Part shown: positions 14,798 to 21,413 of the stretch, one piece after another
Numbering within the stretch: the first letter of the stretch is position 1
Layout of the letters: each line of letters starts with the position of its first letter
Source of the DNA: Actinacidiphila bryophytorum
GTDB lineage: Bacteria; Actinomycetota; Actinomycetes; Streptomycetales; Streptomycetaceae
Direction: 5' to 3'
Assembly (NCBI RefSeq): GCF_016916835.1
Contig: NZ_JAFFIX010000012.1
Span: 62,001 to 126,000 of the forward strand
DNA: 64,000 nucleotides
Made by a program: the position numbers and the translations under genes
The notes under the pieces: generated by a model
The model's database searches: none
Told to the model about the DNA's origin: nothing
Seen by the model: the letters and a program-made list of their open reading frames with translations, nothing else

Positions 14798-15451
14798 CTA
14801 CGGCTGCAGGCGGGTCACCTGCCAGGCCTGGTCCTGGAGTTCGTAGCGCAGCCTGCGGTGGAGGCGGTCGGGGTCGGCGGACCAGAACTCCACCACCGAC
14901 GGGCGCAGCCGGTAGCCGGTGTAGCGGTCAGGGCGCGGCAGGGCGGCGTCGACGGCGGCCAGGCGCGCGGCCTCGTCGCGCAGCGCGGAGACGTCGGGCA
15001 GCGGTTCGCTCTGCCGGGAGGCGACCGTCATGGCGTGCAGCGGGTACGGGCGGCCGTACCACAGGGCGTCGGACTCGGCCTCGGCGCTCTGCTCGACGGG
15101 GCCCGACAGGACGAGCTGCTGGCCGGTCTCGCGCCAGTAGAAGACGCCCGACGCCCAGCCGGTCGCGGCCATGTCGCGGCCCTTGCGGCTGCTGGAGTGG
15201 GTGGTGAACAGCGCCCCGCTGTCGGTCACCTCGATGACGGCGACCATCCGGTTGGAGACCCGGCCCTGCGCATCGGCGGTGGCCAGGGCCATGGCGAGCG
15301 CTTCGCGGACGCCGCGCTCCGCGGCCTGCCCGACCCAGGCGCGCACCAGCCCCATGGGTTCCGGCGGCGGCGCGTCGTACTCGGGGAAGGCCAGGCCGAC
15401 CTCGCCGCTGAGGATCTCCAGCCTGCTGGTGCCCGTACCGGTGTCACTCAT
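14798..15451 (-). CDS. phzG: Phenazine biosynthesis FMN-dependent oxidase PhzG
   Basis: A 217-residue cytosolic flavoprotein of the pyridoxamine-5'-phosphate oxidase fold. PhzG carries out the late oxidations that turn the tricyclic condensation product into phenazine-1-carboxylic or dicarboxylic acids. The sequence shows REALAMALATAD, the FMN-region VSNRMV and FTTHSSSRKGRDM, and the C-terminal RPSVVEFWSADPDRLHRR typical of PNPOx-like oxidases. Length matches known PhzG proteins (about 215-222). It begins 16 bases after phzF, so the two are probably co-transcribed with phzE. Identification rests on fold plus context, as PdxH is similar in sequence. Confidence 0.85.
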   Translation of the reverse strand: MSDTGTGTSRLEILSGEVGLAFPEYDAPPPEPMGLVRAWVGQAAERGVREALAMALATADAQGRVSNRMVAVIEVTDSGALFTTHSSSRKGRDMAATGWASGVFYWRETGQQLVLSGPVEQSAEAESDALWYGRPYPLHAMTVASRQSEPLPDVSALRDEAARLAAVDAALPRPDRYTGYRLRPSVVEFWSADPDRLHRRLRYELQDQAWQVTRLQP

Positions 15452-15467
15452 GCGTTGGCGTCCTCTC

Positions 15468-16301
15468 TCACACGTAGATGGTGCCGCGGGCGACTACTAC
15501 CCCGTGGCCGCCGACCCTGACCTCGTCGATGCGCTCGGCGGACCCCTCGGCGGTGGCCAGCATGCGGGAGGGGCGGCCCAGTTCGACCCCTTGGAAGATC
15601 TCCAGCTCCTCCCCGTATCCGGCCAGCCCGTGCCGGGCCGCGTGGATGGCCAGCGGTCCTGCGGCCGAGCCGGTGGCCGCGTCCTCGACCACACCGTAGG
15701 CGGGCGAGAACATCCGGGTACGCCACCGGGTGCCGCCGCCGGCGAAGCAGTTGGCGGCCATGTCGGGGAACCTGGCGAGCGCCCGGTGGTCGGGTTCGAG
15801 TGCCGACAGGGCGCGCACGCTGGGCAGCCCGACGAAGACGTGCCGGGGGCCGTTGCGGTAGATGTCGACCGGCACCGTGGACGACTCGACGCCGAGCGCC
15901 GCCAGCAGCTCCGAAGCGTGCTCGTACGGCCGCCAGTTGGGCACCGGCTGGCGCATCCGCACGGCCGCGGCCCCGCCGTCCTCGGTGACCTCGAAGGGGA
16001 TGACGCCCATCGCGGTCTCCAGCCGCAGCCGGTCCTTGTGCAGGGACCGGCTCACCGCGACGGCGGTGCCGAGCAGCGGATGGCCGGCGAAGGGCAGTTC
16101 GTTGACGGGGGTGAAGATCCGGATCCTGGCGTCGCCGCCGCTCTCCGGCGGCAGGACGAAGGTGACCTCGGAGAGGTTCATCTCCTTGGCGATCCGCTGC
16201 ATCAGATCGGCCGACAGGTCGGCGGCGTCGAAGAACACGGCCACCGGGTTCCCGGCCAGCGGTTCCCGGGCGAAGGCGTCCACGACGGCGTACTCGTGCA
16301 T
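15468..16301 (-). CDS. phzF: PhzF, trans-2,3-dihydro-3-hydroxyanthranilate isomerase
   Basis: A 277-residue protein (known PhzF about 278) with the diaminopimelate-epimerase-like fold. PhzF isomerises DHHA to the aminoketone that dimerises to the phenazine skeleton. The catalytic glutamate is E45 (MNLSEVTF), the same number as in Pseudomonas PhzF. Other conserved marks are AGNPVAVF near the start, FAGHPLLGTAVA (H73) and EDAATGSAAGPL in the second half. GGAG precedes the ATG. Downstream of the small barrel gene and phzE, upstream of phzG. Confidence in the family is high. A phenazine role is supported by the adjacent phzB, phzE and phzG. Confidence 0.9.
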   Translation of the reverse strand: MHEYAVVDAFAREPLAGNPVAVFFDAADLSADLMQRIAKEMNLSEVTFVLPPESGGDARIRIFTPVNELPFAGHPLLGTAVAVSRSLHKDRLRLETAMGVIPFEVTEDGGAAAVRMRQPVPNWRPYEHASELLAALGVESSTVPVDIYRNGPRHVFVGLPSVRALSALEPDHRALARFPDMAANCFAGGGTRWRTRMFSPAYGVVEDAATGSAAGPLAIHAARHGLAGYGEELEIFQGVELGRPSRMLATAEGSAERIDEVRVGGHGVVVARGTIYV

Positions 16302-16343
16302 GGGATCACTCCAGGGTGGGGGGTCTGCGCTCCAGGGCATGTC

Positions 16344-16673
16344 CTAGGCGGCGAACACCGGGCCGAGCCCGTGCAGTGCCGCCGTCTCGAAGGCGCCCTC
16401 CACCACGGCCTCGACGTCGAAGCCGTAGCGGTGGGTGGGCGGGTAGCCGATGATCTCCGCGGCGCGGTTGGGCGGCATCGCGGCGGGTCTGCCGGCCTCC
16501 CAGAGCATCACCGCACCCCAGCGGTTGTGCTCCCGGTCGGCCATCCAGAACTTCAGCCGCAGCCCCTCGACGGCGCCCCACTGCTCCGCCGTGCCGTCCC
16601 GCAGGTGGTCGCGCAGCGAGTCGACGGTCGCGGCGGAGCCGTCCAGGTCCCACCAGGCGATGTCAACGCGCAT
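16344..16673 (-). CDS. Small YdhR-like dimeric alpha/beta-barrel protein in the phenazine operon
   Basis: A 109-residue protein with no signal peptide. The pattern (VDIAWWDLDGSAATVDSLRDHL, LKFWMADREHNRWGAVMLWE, PPNRAAEIIGYPP) resembles the YdhR-type family of the dimeric alpha/beta-barrel superfamily, some members of which act as cofactor-free monooxygenases. Its ATG lies 11 bases inside the 3' end of phzE, implying translational coupling, so it should serve the same pathway, perhaps as a ring hydroxylase or a helper of the condensation. This gene is not part of the core phz set I know, so its role is a guess. Confidence 0.6.
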   Translation of the reverse strand: MRVDIAWWDLDGSAATVDSLRDHLRDGTAEQWGAVEGLRLKFWMADREHNRWGAVMLWEAGRPAAMPPNRAAEIIGYPPTHRYGFDVEAVVEGAFETAALHGLGPVFAA

Positions 16674-18561
16674 GGCGCAGCGCTCCCCTGATGGTCTCGG
16701 CCACGATGCGCGGCCCGCCCACGGTGAGCACGGACTCGGCGTGGAACTGCAGCGAGGCGAAGTGCGGGCCGCGCAGGGCGTGCACCTCACCGGTGAGCGG
16801 GTCGCGGCTGACCCGCACGGACCCGACGCCCTCGGCATGGTGGGTGTCGCGGGCGCTGCGGGCGGCGAAGGTGTTGTAGAAGCCGACGCGTTCGCGGGCG
16901 CCGAACAGCTCGATCTCCCGCTGCACCCCCTGGTTGGGGGCTTTCAGCCGGGTCAGGTCCAGGCCCAGCCGTGCGCTGAGCACCTGGTGGCTCAGGCACA
17001 CCGCGACGAAAGGGCGGCGCTCGGCCAGCAGGGCGTCGGTCGCCGCCCGCAGGCTGCCGATCTTCGGGTCCCGCTCCGAGCGCGGGTCGCCGGGCCCCGG
17101 CCCCATCACCACCAGGTCGTAGCCGTCCGCGGCGGCCTCGTCGTAGCGGCGGATCTCCACCTGCATGCCCAGGGTGCCCAGCTGCAGGGCGAGCATCGCG
17201 GTGAAGGAGTCCTCGGCGTCGACGACCAGGGTCTTGAGCCCCGCGAGGTCGGCGAGCGCCCCCTGCAGCCGGGTGTCGGGGTCGCGGAGCCAGAAGTCGC
17301 CTATGCCGGTGTTGCGCCGGCGCAGGGTGGCGAGCACGTCGGGGTGGTGGGCGAAGCGCGGCCCCTCGTCGGCCTCCAGCGCGGCCAGCAGCCCGGAGAC
17401 CTTGGCGCGGGTCTCGGCCGCCTCGGCGTCCGGGTCCGAGTGGCGTACGAGGGTGGAGCCGGCCGCGATCCGCACCCGGCCCTCGGCGTCGATGTCGGCG
17501 GTGCGGATCAGGATGGCGGAGTCCATGGTGCGCTCCCCGCCGGCGTCCCTGCCGATCAGTGCGGCGACCCCGCTGTAGTAGCCGCGGCCCGCGGGCTCGT
17601 ACCGGCTGATCACCCGGGCCGCGCTCTCCACCGGGCTGCCGGTGACGGTGGGGGCGAACATCGTCTCCCGCAGCACCTCCCGCGGGTCGCGGTCGGAGCG
17701 GCCCTCCACGAAGTACTCGGTGTGGGCGAGCCGCGACATCTCCCGCAGATACGGGCCGGTGATGCGGGCGCCGCGCTCGCAGATCCTGGCCATGGTCTTG
17801 AGTTCCTCGTCCAGCACCATGTACAGCTCGTCGGTCTCCTTGCGGTCGGCGAGGAAGTCCGTGACGCCGGCGAGGGTGGGACCGCCGGGCGGGTAGCGGT
17901 AGGTGCCGCTGATCGGGTTCATCACGGCGGTGCCGCCGCTGAGCGAGACGTGCCGCTCGGGGCTGGCGCCGACGAAGGTGCGCCGGCCGGTGTGGATGAC
18001 GAAGGTCCAGTACGCGCCCTGCTCCCCGGTCAGCAGCCGGCGGAAGAAGGACAGCGCGTTGCGTACGGAGTAGTCGCCGATGTCCACCAGCAGGGAGCGC
18101 TTGATGACGAAGTTGGCGCCTTCGCCGGTGCCGATCTCGTCCGCGACGACCCGGCGGACGAGGTCGGCGTACTCCTCGTCCTCCACGTCGAAGCGGCGGT
18201 TGCTGAGGGCCGCCGGCGCCTGCGGCACGCGGGCGGCGACCTCGGAGACGGGCAGCTGCTGGTGCCCGCTCACCGACATCGCCAGCAGCGGTTCCCCGTC
18301 GTCGGGTGCCGCGAACCCCCGCTCGGCGAGCTGCCGGTAGGGCACCAGGACCAGCACCTCGGGGCGGGCGCCCGCGGGGGGCAGGTCGGTGAGCGGGAGG
18401 TCGGCCAGCGACGCGTACGGGGACACGTCCCCGACCAGGACGTCGACGGTGCCGGGCGAGCCGTCCGGCCCGAGCCGGTGGAGCAGTGCGAAGGAGGGCG
18501 GTTCCTGGGCCAGGATCCGGTCGAGCAGGTCGCCGTCGGGCTGCGTGGCCGGCGCGTTCAT
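16663..18561 (-). CDS. phzE: PhzE, 2-amino-2-desoxyisochorismate synthase (fused MST and glutamine amidotransferase)
   Basis: A 632-residue bifunctional enzyme, the usual PhzE length. The first ~430 residues are an anthranilate-synthase-type chorismate-binding domain (MNPISGTYRYPPGG, RICERGARITGPYLREMSRL, GSPVESAARVISRYEP, IAAGSTLVRHSDPD). Residues ~440-632 are a class-I amidotransferase with VVMGPGPGDP, nucleophile Cys in FVAVCLSHQ and the His/Glu pair in LQFHAESVL. PhzE diverts chorismate to ADIC using glutamine-derived ammonia, the first committed step of phenazine synthesis. The ATG at 18561 gives the expected length. It is divergent from phzB across a 337-bp region and is the first gene of the minus-strand phz operon. 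Confidence 0.92.
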   Translation of the reverse strand: MNAPATQPDGDLLDRILAQEPPSFALLHRLGPDGSPGTVDVLVGDVSPYASLADLPLTDLPPAGARPEVLVLVPYRQLAERGFAAPDDGEPLLAMSVSGHQQLPVSEVAARVPQAPAALSNRRFDVEDEEYADLVRRVVADEIGTGEGANFVIKRSLLVDIGDYSVRNALSFFRRLLTGEQGAYWTFVIHTGRRTFVGASPERHVSLSGGTAVMNPISGTYRYPPGGPTLAGVTDFLADRKETDELYMVLDEELKTMARICERGARITGPYLREMSRLAHTEYFVEGRSDRDPREVLRETMFAPTVTGSPVESAARVISRYEPAGRGYYSGVAALIGRDAGGERTMDSAILIRTADIDAEGRVRIAAGSTLVRHSDPDAEAAETRAKVSGLLAALEADEGPRFAHHPDVLATLRRRNTGIGDFWLRDPDTRLQGALADLAGLKTLVVDAEDSFTAMLALQLGTLGMQVEIRRYDEAAADGYDLVVMGPGPGDPRSERDPKIGSLRAATDALLAERRPFVAVCLSHQVLSARLGLDLTRLKAPNQGVQREIELFGARERVGFYNTFAARSARDTHHAEGVGSVRVSRDPLTGEVHALRGPHFASLQFHAESVLTVGGPRIVAETIRGALRHAR

Positions 18562-18898
18562 ACGGAGAGAACCCCTTCGAACGTCGGGAGGGCGTGGACG
18601 GGCAGTACCGCACGTTCGGAGACTGCATTTGGTTCGGGTTTCATCTTCATGCGTCCTGCAATTGCAGCGCACAAGTCAACTCGCCGGCAGCTTCTGCAGA
18701 CTAACGACGGCCCGCTCGAAACGTCCAGCAGCCCCTTGGGGATCAGCCAATCGTTGGCCGAAAGAACGATATCCGCTGCCCGCGAACGGCCCCCGCTCCC
18801 CGCGTCGCGGTGCCGACTTGACACCGGCGCCCCCGATCGCTGATGGTCGAAAACGTCGTGCGCCGGGCACGGGTCGAGCACGGGATTGCGAGGTCGTG
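18562..18898. promoter_or_regulatory. Divergent phzE-phzB control region
   Basis: This 337-bp region is richer in A/T than its surroundings. It holds a perfect 12-bp palindrome CTGCAATTGCAG (18656-18667), an inverted repeat GCCAA-TCG-TTGGC (18746-18758) and, on the plus strand, TTGACA at 18818-18823 followed after 17 bases by TGATGG, a possible weak promoter for phzB. No regulatory gene lies in the cluster, so control probably comes from elsewhere in the genome. Confidence 0.5.
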
Positions 18899-19369
18899 AT
18901 GAGTGAATTCGACGAGAACACCGAGTTACGCCGCAGGCATCGCGCGGTGGTCGAGGACTATCTCAGCAGGCAGGGCGAGAACAGGCTGACCCGCTATCTC
19001 CTCTTCACCGAGGACGGCAGCGCGGGACTGTATACGGGTGACAAGACGGAGCCGATCGTCTCCCGCGGTCACGAGAAGCTCAAGGCGCACGGCGAGTGGT
19101 CGCTGAAGATGTTTCCCGACTGGGTGTGGTATGACATCTCGATCTTCGAGACCCAGGACCCCAACCGATTCTGGGCCGAATGCGAAGGTGAGGGCGCCAT
19201 TCTTTACCCGTCCTACCCGCCTGGCCACTACAGGAATCACTTCATTCATTCCTTCGACCTCTCCGACGGAAAGATCGTGACGCAGCGGGAGTTCATGAAC
19301 CCTTTCAACCAGCTGCGCGCGCTCGGCATCGAGATTCCGGTCATCAACCGCGGCGGCATCCCCACCTGA
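18899..19369 (+). CDS. phzB: PhzB (PhzA/B family), phenazine ring-condensation catalyst; contains a TTA codon
   Basis: A 156-residue NTF2-like protein (Pseudomonas PhzB about 162). PhzA/B dimers promote the condensation of two PhzF products into the tricycle. Conserved family landmarks are visible: WSLKMFPDWVWY, NHFIHSFDLSDGKI and REFMNPFNQLRALGI. H64 and E131 have the same 67-residue spacing as the catalytic H73/E140 of Burkholderia PhzA. Codon 10 is TTA (18926-18928), the rare leucine codon read by the bldA tRNA in Streptomyces, so translation should be tied to development. A single A/B-type gene is present, as in most non-Pseudomonas clusters. The GTG directly before the ATG is an alternative start. 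Confidence 0.93.
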   Translation: MSEFDENTELRRRHRAVVEDYLSRQGENRLTRYLLFTEDGSAGLYTGDKTEPIVSRGHEKLKAHGEWSLKMFPDWVWYDISIFETQDPNRFWAECEGEGAILYPSYPPGHYRNHFIHSFDLSDGKIVTQREFMNPFNQLRALGIEIPVINRGGIPT

Positions 19370-19381
19370 GGAGGAACCGGT

Positions 19382-20431
19382 GTGGCAGGAGGTTCCGCAG
19401 TGACGATGGACGGTACGGCGGCGAAGATCGACCTGAAGGCGGCGCAGGAGGCCGTCGAGCTGATCACCGGCGGCTGGCGCGCCCAGTGCCTGCACACCGC
19501 GCTCACCATGGGCATCCCCGACCACCTCGCGGCCGGCCGGACCACCGACGCCCAGCTCGCGGAGGCGACCGGCGCCCTGCAGGAGGGTGTGCACCGCCTG
19601 ATGCGGCTGCTGGTCGCGATGGGCGTGTTCGAGGGCGACGGGGAGGGCGGCTACCGCAACACGGCGGTCAGCGGCGTCCTGCTCGACAGGCCGGACTCGC
19701 TGCGGAACATGTGCCTGCTCTACGGCGCGGAGTTCTACACCGCATGGGGCCACGCGCCCGCCGCGATCAGCACCCTCACCTCCGGCTTCGAACTCGCCTA
19801 CGGTGAACCGCTGTACAGCTACCTCAGCCACGACCACGACGCGAACAAGCGCTTCCAGCTCGCCATGAAGTCCGGCAACCTCTTCTTCGACCACGTCCCG
19901 CAGGCCGTGGACTTCGCCGGCCGCTCCTTCGCCGACATCGGCGGCGGCATCGGCCAGTTGACCGCGGCGATCCTGGCAGCGGTGCCGGACACGCACGGCA
20001 CGCTGCTCGACCGGGAGCACGTGGTGCCCGTCGCGGCCCGCAACCTCGCGGGCTCGGTGGGGCTCGACCGGGTCGAACTCGTCGGCGGGGACATGTTCCA
20101 GGCGGTGCCGCAGGGCAGGGACGTCTACCTGCTGTGCCGGGTGCTCGCGGGGTGGAGCGACGACGCGGTGGTCGGACTGTTCGAGAACTGCCGCAAGGCC
20201 ATGGCCGATCCGTCGGCGCGGCTGGTGATCCTGGAGCGCGTGGTCGCAGACGAGGACTCCTCCGTGCTGGCGGCGCTGTGGGACCTGCACCTGCTGATGA
20301 CCAACGGCGGCCGGCACCGCACCCTCGGCGCATTCACCGCGATGCTCGACCGGGCCGGTTTCGACGTGGAGCGGGTCGCGGAACTGCCGGCCCAGACCAC
20401 CGCCGTGATCGCGGCGCCCCGCACCGTCTGA
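19382..20431 (+). CDS. SAM-dependent methyltransferase of the O-methyltransferase/PhzM family
   Basis: A 349-residue protein. An N-terminal winged-helix dimerisation domain (LITGGWRAQCLHTALTMGIP, then RLMRLLVAMGVFEG) is followed by a Rossmann methyltransferase with the SAM loop FADIGGGIGQL. This is the plant-type O-methyltransferase family that includes PhzM, which N-methylates phenazine-1-carboxylate. Where most members have a catalytic His (LHDW) this one reads VLAGWSDD, so a general base may be missing, compatible with N-methylation or with non-catalytic use. It starts 12 bases after phzB with GGAGGA upstream. Later starts at 19400 (GTG) and 19406 (ATG) are also possible. Tailoring of a phenazine is the likely role. 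Confidence 0.8.
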   Translation: MAGGSAVTMDGTAAKIDLKAAQEAVELITGGWRAQCLHTALTMGIPDHLAAGRTTDAQLAEATGALQEGVHRLMRLLVAMGVFEGDGEGGYRNTAVSGVLLDRPDSLRNMCLLYGAEFYTAWGHAPAAISTLTSGFELAYGEPLYSYLSHDHDANKRFQLAMKSGNLFFDHVPQAVDFAGRSFADIGGGIGQLTAAILAAVPDTHGTLLDREHVVPVAARNLAGSVGLDRVELVGGDMFQAVPQGRDVYLLCRVLAGWSDDAVVGLFENCRKAMADPSARLVILERVVADEDSSVLAALWDLHLLMTNGGRHRTLGAFTAMLDRAGFDVERVAELPAQTTAVIAAPRTV

Positions 20432-20516
20432 CGACCTCCCCGGCCCGGTCCCGGAGCCAGGCTCCTGGACCGGGCCCCGGGCCGGGCACGGCGACGCCTT
20501 CGAAAGGGACCCCTCG

Positions 20517-21413
20517 ATGACCCATGCGGTGAACCTGGACGCGGTCGGCCGCACGGCACTGGTCACCGCCGCGATGCGCGCGGCCGAGACCAGCAGGCCC
20601 GACGCGATCCACCGGGACCCGTACGCGGCGGCCCTGGCCGGCGACCTCGGCCGGCAGCTGCTCGCCGAACTGCTGGCCGCGGTGTCCGAGGCCGGGCCGT
20701 CCGGCGCGCGCACAGGGCGTACGCCGGGTGCGACCGCCGCCGGCTCCGGCAGGCGAGCCGTCAACGCGATCCGCACCCGCTTCTTCGACGACTACCTGCG
20801 TGCCGCCGTCACCGAGGCGGGCCTGCGCCAGGTGGTGGTCGCGGGCGCCGGCATGGACTCCCGCGCCTACCGCATGCAGTGGCCGGACGGCGTGCGCTAC
20901 TTCGAGGTCGACCGGCCGCCCGTGCTGGACTACAAGCGCGAGTGCCTGGCCGCCGAGTCCCCGCGGGCCGACCACCGGTGGGTCCCGGTGGACCTCGCGG
21001 AGCCGTCCTGGCCCGAGGCCCTGGCGGACGCGGGCTTCGACCCGGCGCTCCCCTCGACCTGGCTGCTTGAGGGCCTGCTGTTCTACCTCCCGGAGTCCGC
21101 GGTGCACCGGGTGCTCGGCCAGATCGCGGAGTCGGCCGCACCGGGCAGCCGGATCGCGGCCGACCTGGTGAACGCCGCCGCGCTGACGATGCCCGCCCAG
21201 CGGGCGCTGCTGGAGGTGTTCGCGAGCTGGGGGTGCCCGTGGCTGTTCGGCTGCGACGAGCCGGAGGAGCTGTTCGCGCGGCACGGCTTCGCGGCCGACG
21301 TGGTGCAGCCCGGTGAGCCGGGCGCGGACTTCGGCCGCTGGCCCGACCCGGTGCCGCCGCGCGACCTGCCGGACCTCTACCGGGTCTTCCTGGTCAGCGG
21401 CCGGCGGCACTGA
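20517..21413 (+). CDS. Class I SAM-dependent methyltransferase, leucine-carboxyl-methyltransferase-like (TIGR00027 type)
   Basis: A 298-residue methyltransferase. The N-terminal signature (VGRTALVTAAMRAAETSRPDA with DPYAAALAG), RTRFFDDYL, the SAM motif VVVAGAGMDSRAYRM and WLLEGLLFYLPE are hallmarks of this actinobacterial family related to PPM1/LCM. Some members methylate carboxyl groups or phenols of secondary metabolites. GAAAGGGA precedes the ATG. As the last plus-strand gene of the phenazine group it may methylate a phenazine carboxylate or hydroxyl, but the activity cannot be assigned from sequence. Confidence 0.8.
   Translation: MTHAVNLDAVGRTALVTAAMRAAETSRPDAIHRDPYAAALAGDLGRQLLAELLAAVSEAGPSGARTGRTPGATAAGSGRRAVNAIRTRFFDDYLRAAVTEAGLRQVVVAGAGMDSRAYRMQWPDGVRYFEVDRPPVLDYKRECLAAESPRADHRWVPVDLAEPSWPEALADAGFDPALPSTWLLEGLLFYLPESAVHRVLGQIAESAAPGSRIAADLVNAAALTMPAQRALLEVFASWGCPWLFGCDEPEELFARHGFAADVVQPGEPGADFGRWPDPVPPRDLPDLYRVFLVSGRRH

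Follow-up and report, generated by a model that had tools for sequence, protein, structure and literature searches.

How a phenazine cluster might operate without phzD is the question raised by seven genes at positions 14798–21413 of the window, as we call the analysed stretch of 64,000 nucleotides from Actinacidiphila bryophytorum (genome G000, contig C4, positions 62001–126000). The original prediction listed phzE, phzF, phzB and phzG without phzC or phzD, and proposed either that PhzD was encoded elsewhere or that the pathway had been rewired. We consider it probable that the phenazine pathway is split, with hydrolysis of 2-amino-2-deoxyisochorismic acid (ADIC) supplied in trans by a PhzD encoded on contig C19. 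The local PhzE would convert chorismate to ADIC, the C19 PhzD would convert ADIC to trans-2,3-dihydro-3-hydroxyanthranilic acid (DHHA), and the local PhzF, PhzB and PhzG would carry DHHA to phenazine carboxylate; methylation by the PhzM-like and LCM-type enzymes would probably follow. We infer co-expression of the C19 PhzD with the cluster, sharing of ADIC or DHHA between the two loci and a methylated product. If this is right, two pathways may have one step in common, and expressing the cluster by itself in another host should fail unless phzD is added.

The predicted gene content was confirmed, with E, F, B and G present and neither phzC nor phzD, and all seven open reading frames (ORFs) were full length at the coordinates first given. 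No PhzD was found in the window by Pfam scan or by tblastn with two PhzD proteins (best E 0.5); PhzB, as the positive control for the tblastn search, was matched at 1e-107. A genome-wide Pfam scan gave nine isochorismatase-family (PF00857) matches, none of them on C4. No phzD remnant was found in the window by tblastn, and the best place for a 55-nt phzD start region had 31 of 55 matches, which is chance level.

Searching the rest of the genome bore out the suggestion that PhzD is encoded elsewhere, with a single PhzD-type gene found on contig C19. When the genome was searched with two PhzD proteins, this gene (C19:36559–37242) gave the sole match at E≤1e-20, covering C19:36553–37239. Its product scored 294 bits to Pseudomonas aeruginosa PhzD (1nf9) and 290 and 281 bits to the PhzD entries 1nf8 and 3r77, the latter titled ‘probable isochorismatase’, against at most 205 bits to other solved isochorismatases (vibriobactin-specific and others). 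At the position where 1nf8 has Ala in place of Asp, the C19 protein retains Asp, and the LTKWRYSAF stretch is likewise retained. By sequence, the C19 gene is thus nearer to PhzD than to isochorismatases of siderophore type.

Directly 3′ of the C19 phzD lies a second phzE, the product of which is 57% identical to the window PhzE. The neighbouring genes encode NAT, KAS III, SDR, zinc dehydrogenase, AMP-ligase, FAD monooxygenase, polyketide-cyclase-like and enoyl-CoA hydratase proteins. Because PhzB, PhzF and PhzG seeds found no match in the 20-kb stretch around these genes (L023), C19 looks like the site of a separate DHHA-using cluster. The C19-type monooxygenase was present (E≤1e-100) in three of the 35 genomes of the genus, namely G000, A. 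cocklensis (G004) and G023. The first two have a phenazine cluster without D, and the monooxygenase was not found in A. paucisporea (G010) or G027, which keep D. An IS701-family transposase gene was also observed near the C19 cluster (L171, 18130–19428). In the corresponding locus of A. cocklensis (L160), the gene after PhzD resembles the gene after PhzE on C19.

The possibility that the C19 gene is the relocated original phzD was considered and rejected. Relative to A. paucisporea, the window PhzE is 84% identical and the C19 PhzD only 61.5%, which indicates that C19 carries the phzD of another cluster. Nor did blastn find sequence in common between the window leader and C19, the best match having an E value of 0.1.

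To place the missing gene in context, genome contigs were scanned with the window PhzE and the best 80 of 148 relatives were kept, a set which, being chosen by PhzE, may omit genomes very near the window. In 79 of these 80 loci PhzD ended at most 400 nt from the PhzE start, the exception being A. cocklensis (L033). Thirty-nine of the 80 were phenazine loci by the thresholds of this analysis, and 38 of the 39 contained D. Two congeners, A. paucisporea (L017/L032) and G027 (L019), have phzB divergent from a D-E-small protein-F-G operon, and both methyltransferase genes are present as well. Gene content and divergent layout in the window match this arrangement, minus D. A blastn comparison found a conserved block at 18679–18735 in the window gap, and the motif pair TGGACG-N18-TAGGCT 5′ of phzD in both congeners is the counterpart of TGGACG-N18-TAGTCT in the window. 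The conserved block is promoter-like and may represent a promoter. We infer that the window cluster lost phzD secondarily, from an ancestor that carried it at this position.

A further congener, G030, whose genome is a single contig, has a small protein-F-G-B-OMT-LCM arrangement on one strand (OMT, O-methyltransferase), with no match to D or E in the 20 kb of this cluster. After the same conserved block, G030 has a stretch resembling the start of phzD (MTGVPRIRPCLPP versus MTGLPPISAYPLP), with 6 of 13 residues and 30 of 39 nucleotides as in A. paucisporea, and this stretch runs into the small-protein gene. When the 55-nt A. paucisporea phzD start was compared with 39,890 places in the G030 locus, the best had 38 matches, the same count as this stretch (also 38), and the next had 31. 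The G030 stretch is therefore likely to be a phzD remnant. A PhzD-PhzE pair lies 2.46 Mb from the G030 cluster. In phylogenetic trees (LG+G4, ultrafast bootstrap), the window and A. cocklensis formed a group separate from all others, with support of 100 for F, G and the small protein combined, 93 for PhzF, 72 for OMT and LCM combined, and 93 for PhzE, which is missing from the G030 cluster. Because the trees set the window and A. cocklensis apart, the losses of D in the window and in G030 are best read as independent.

Of 394 Streptomycetaceae genomes, 33 gave a PhzB match, and 32 of the 33 also had a PhzD match; the one without, G015, is 71% complete, and a PhzD match is present in each of the 32 PhzB genomes with a completeness of 90% or more. 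The two genes were within about 12 kb of each other in 27 of the 33 and distant in three, and could not be assigned in G015, G294 and G346 owing to contig breaks or the 71% completeness. Among the three with distant D, the gene is on another contig in G000 and on the same contig as PhzB in G030 and G376. The latter, Streptomyces sp. MP131-18 (L235, G376:C1:5232001–5252000), encodes F, the small protein, OMT, B and G but neither D nor E. It has a PhzD-PhzE pair 1.8 Mb away beside homologues of C19 genes, as well as a further PhzD match at C1:2283083. The accessible text of the MP131-18 paper names only a predicted phenazine cluster (PMC5301196). In a sample of the phylum, PhzB was found in three of 398 genomes, two of those from the family. 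A broader reading, which we advance tentatively and at slightly less than even chance, is that actinomycete phenazine clusters have repeatedly lost shared upstream steps (phzD here, D and E in G030 and G376) and now depend on an unlinked, non-phenazine DHHA cluster of the same genome. Two antibiotic pathways would then draw on a common precursor supply, the deletion remnant and the conserved promoter-like block being the record of these losses.

Several observations weigh against a functional split pathway. The cluster of the sister species A. cocklensis also lacks D, and it is broken: at about position 8388 of L161 (G004:C113), a join links OMT codon 208 to PhzE codon 30, in a locus that contains no Ns. 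Its PhzE consequently lacks the first 29 codons, and near the join in-frame starts are limited to two GTG codons. No PhzB match was found in the A. cocklensis genome. The C19-type cluster of this species (L160, 9248–10916, G004:C67) has PhzD, with no match to PhzE or KAS III, and a genome search for PhzE returned the copy in the broken cluster and otherwise only a TrpEG-like match on C64. Because the sister cluster is broken and its C19-type cluster is without PhzE, decay is a live alternative for the window, and the loss of D in this lineage may be a step in such decay. An additional distant PhzD match was also present in 10 of the 27 genomes with D nearby, one of these matches being partial, so that the presence of PhzD elsewhere in all three split genomes is weak support when taken alone.

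Measures of selection did not settle the matter. All pairwise ratios of nonsynonymous to synonymous rates (dN/dS, NG86) were below 1, at 0.09–0.64 for comparisons with the window, the highest being PhzG of the window versus G030, and at 0.08–0.45 for the D-keeping pair G010 and G027. Over six genes (PhzB left out and OMT limited to 144 codons owing to the A. cocklensis deletion), 110 synonymous and 56 nonsynonymous changes fell on the window branch and 77 and 45 on the A. cocklensis branch (Fisher p 0.62). Five genes of the C45 region were more constrained, with 103 synonymous and 21 nonsynonymous changes on the window branch. As in the cluster genes, the A. cocklensis branch was the shorter of the two (61 versus 103 synonymous changes). 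The cluster genes are constrained, less so than the C45 genes, and do not differ from those of the broken sister cluster. The pairwise values below 1 count in favour of the split pathway; taken together, the tests do not separate function from recent loss, and the branch counts neither date nor exclude recent decay, which counts against it.

Decay would mean that phzD was lost first, that the pathway is blocked at ADIC and that the recent date of this loss alone explains why the other genes are still intact. The large internal deletion in A. cocklensis, with its missing PhzB and shortened PhzE, favours this, and the selection ratios fit recent loss as well as function, the constraint being below that of the five C45 genes. 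The seven full-length window ORFs, the tight left operon and the retained promoter-like block argue the other way, as do the full-length F, G and B matches in G030 and G376, which also lack D and E, and we regard decay, although the main rival reading, as unlikely. An alternative in which ADIC is used directly, or in which PhzF and PhzG act on another substrate, would dispense with the isochorismatase step. Pathways that use ADIC without PhzD exist, among them the enediyne benzoxazolinate pathway, and the only evidence particular to this alternative in the window is the absence of D from the cluster. The core enzymes PhzF, PhzB, PhzE and PhzG, however, match canonical solved enzymes closely, at 209–780 bits, every near-complete PhzB genome keeps a PhzD match as described above, and the nearest intact relatives keep D in the cluster. 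The proposal of a rewired pathway that skips DHHA was accordingly not upheld and is very improbable; the weaker form, in which the step is supplied from another cluster, is the best reading.

It is equally improbable that one of the eight other isochorismatase-family proteins performs the ADIC step. The genome does hold nine PF00857 matches, and in Streptomyces sp. NTK937 EntB is described as able to stand in for the isochorismatase that acts on ADIC (PMC5481532), but the C19 gene alone matches the PhzD queries at the threshold given above. That phzD was dropped or collapsed during assembly is scarcely credible. The genome is a draft of 8.05 Mb in 96 contigs; the cluster nevertheless lies in the interior of a 222-kb contig, away from its ends, with a coherent leader and a 337-bp gap, and two other genomes in which PhzB and a distant PhzD share one contig also lack D in the cluster. 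A split pathway with PhzD supplied from C19 remains the reading that we favour.

Features of the phenazine cluster in the window and the evidence for each
Feature	Position	Strand	Evidence
PhzG, FMN-dependent oxidase of phenazine biosynthesis	14798–15451	−	NCBIfam equivalog NF038138 304 bits (cut-off 270); 251 bits to 4hmw
PhzF, DHHA isomerase	15468–16340	−	PF02567 4e-72; 398 bits to PhzF 1u1v
Small NosA-like protein, directly 3′ of phzE	16344–16673	−	71.5 bits, E 7.5e-19 to NosA 4za1
PhzE, ADIC synthase, fused chorismate-binding and glutaminase domains	16663–18561	−	PF00425, PF00117; 780 bits to 3r74
Gap of 337 bp between divergent phzE and phzB; phzD position in two congeners	18562–18898		Gene order, blastn, leader alignment
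Promoter-like block TGGACG-N18-TAGTCT, 5′ of phzE here	18698–18727	−	Four-leader alignment; pattern match in window
PhzB, single PhzA/B-type dimerisation enzyme	18899–19369	+	PF03284 3e-71; 209 bits to 3ff0
PhzM-like methyltransferase (OMT), GTG start	19382–20431	+	PF00891 and PF08100; 314 bits to 2ip2
LCM/TIGR00027-type S-adenosylmethionine (SAM) methyltransferase	20517–21413	+	PF04072 1e-53; TIGR00027 236 bits (cut-off 93.6)

Judged by sequence alone, PhzE, PhzF, PhzB and PhzG qualify as phenazine core enzymes. PhzE aligned to 3r74 across residues 7–630, and the stretches of PhzF with catalytic residues were kept in the alignment to 1u1v. Because the sequences mark the core as canonical, the requirement for DHHA should persist. 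The start of PhzF may instead be an internal Met at codon 14, and start codons downstream of the GTG are possible for the PhzM-like methyltransferase. The best solved match of the latter was a phenazine-specific methyltransferase, 2ip2, which we take to be PhzM, the runner-up scoring 181 bits. The two methyltransferases that had been cited as giving the cluster an unusual make-up are present, but the pair is less unusual than was supposed, one member being nearest to PhzM and a similar pair, a PhzM homologue and a predicted O-methyltransferase, being described for Streptomyces sp. URHA0041 (PMC7591250). A methylated phenazine is a plausible product.

In the left operon, phzE and the small-protein gene overlap by 11 bp, and the small-protein gene and phzF are 3 bp apart and phzF and phzG 16 bp. 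In the right operon, phzB and the first methyltransferase gene are 12 bp apart and the two methyltransferase genes 85 bp. The cluster is flanked by a GH20 hexosaminidase gene and an endonuclease/exonuclease/phosphatase-family gene. A Pfam scan of the small protein gave no match. A homologue of this protein adjoined PhzE in 28 of the 80 PhzE loci and was present anywhere in the locus in 31, of which 11 had no phenazine genes by the same thresholds. A NosA-like protein next to PhzE occurs in both phenazine and non-phenazine DHHA clusters. The best homologue given for its Dermacoccus abyssi counterpart is a YdhR family protein (PMC7143476).

The predicted lack of isochorismatase and 3-deoxy-D-arabino-heptulosonate 7-phosphate (DAHP) synthase genes in the window held in the Pfam scan for PF00857 and for the type II DAHP synthase family PF01474 (type I was not searched for). 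The only PF01474 match of the genome was on C45, where a PhzE/TrpEG-type gene lies about 3 kb away. A DAHP synthase match was nearby in 33 of the 39 phenazine loci, 8 of the 39 being shorter than 20 kb, and no such match was found in the 20-kb stretches of the two phzD-keeping congeners. Because both of these congeners also lack it, and phzC is not universal, the absence of phzC from the window cluster is not remarkable.

All known phenazine producers are said to contain the core genes, although the reference set behind this statement allowed one missing gene (PMC7591250). For D. abyssi the literature lists the cluster genes as ‘phzBCEFGH’, with no phzD named (PMC7143476), and this cluster was considered as a phzD-less precedent. 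This was rejected, since the Dermacoccus-like genome G600 (3.2 Mb, 60 contigs; L259, G600:C21:13001–33000) has a PhzD match directly before PhzE. The omission from the published list is probably an annotation gap, on the assumption that G600 corresponds to D. abyssi. A phenazine cluster without phzD for which a non-phenazine cluster is the likely source was not found in the open-access literature. Genome-mining rules that require all phz genes together could discard or misread such clusters. If confirmed, the window would offer a testable case of one biosynthetic cluster needing another for a core step, with three lineages available for comparison.

Among known systems, the closest layouts keep phzD. 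A. paucisporea and G027 share all seven genes and the divergent arrangement with the window but have phzD between phzB and phzE. The cluster of Streptomyces lomondensis S015, lphzGFEDCB, includes phzC and phzD (PMC4549113), and that of another S. lomondensis strain (L035) has homologues of B, E, F, G and the small protein as in the window but phzD in the cluster. Two phenazine loci in one genome are reported for Streptomyces cinnamonensis (as cited in PMC5712208). In Streptomyces sp. S4.7, the mfq cluster lacks phzF, and heterologous production of phenazine-1,6-dicarboxylic acid needed the phzF of a second cluster (PMC12814520). As described there, phenazine core enzymes are divided between two clusters of one genome, as in the window case, but the missing gene is phzF and its source is itself a phenazine cluster, whereas here phzD is missing and the likely source, C19, has no PhzB, PhzF or PhzG match in its 20-kb stretch.

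Supply in trans of the ADIC and DHHA steps also has parallels. In caboxamycin biosynthesis by Streptomyces sp. NTK937, the isochorismatase gene cbxH is dispensable owing to a paralogue and EntB acting in trans (PMC5481532). These steps come from unlinked paralogues, as proposed for the window, but as described the caboxamycin cluster keeps its own isochorismatase and makes a benzoxazole, whereas the window cluster has no phzD. The limazepine enzymes Lim5/Lim6, a pair of PhzD and PhzE type, supply DHHA to a pathway that does not lead to a phenazine (PMC5958127), which is like what C19 may do; unlike in the present proposal, the accessible parts of the source describe no phenazine cluster as dependent on it. 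Split cores and an isochorismatase acting in trans are thus already published, and the window case is real and informative and not categorically new.

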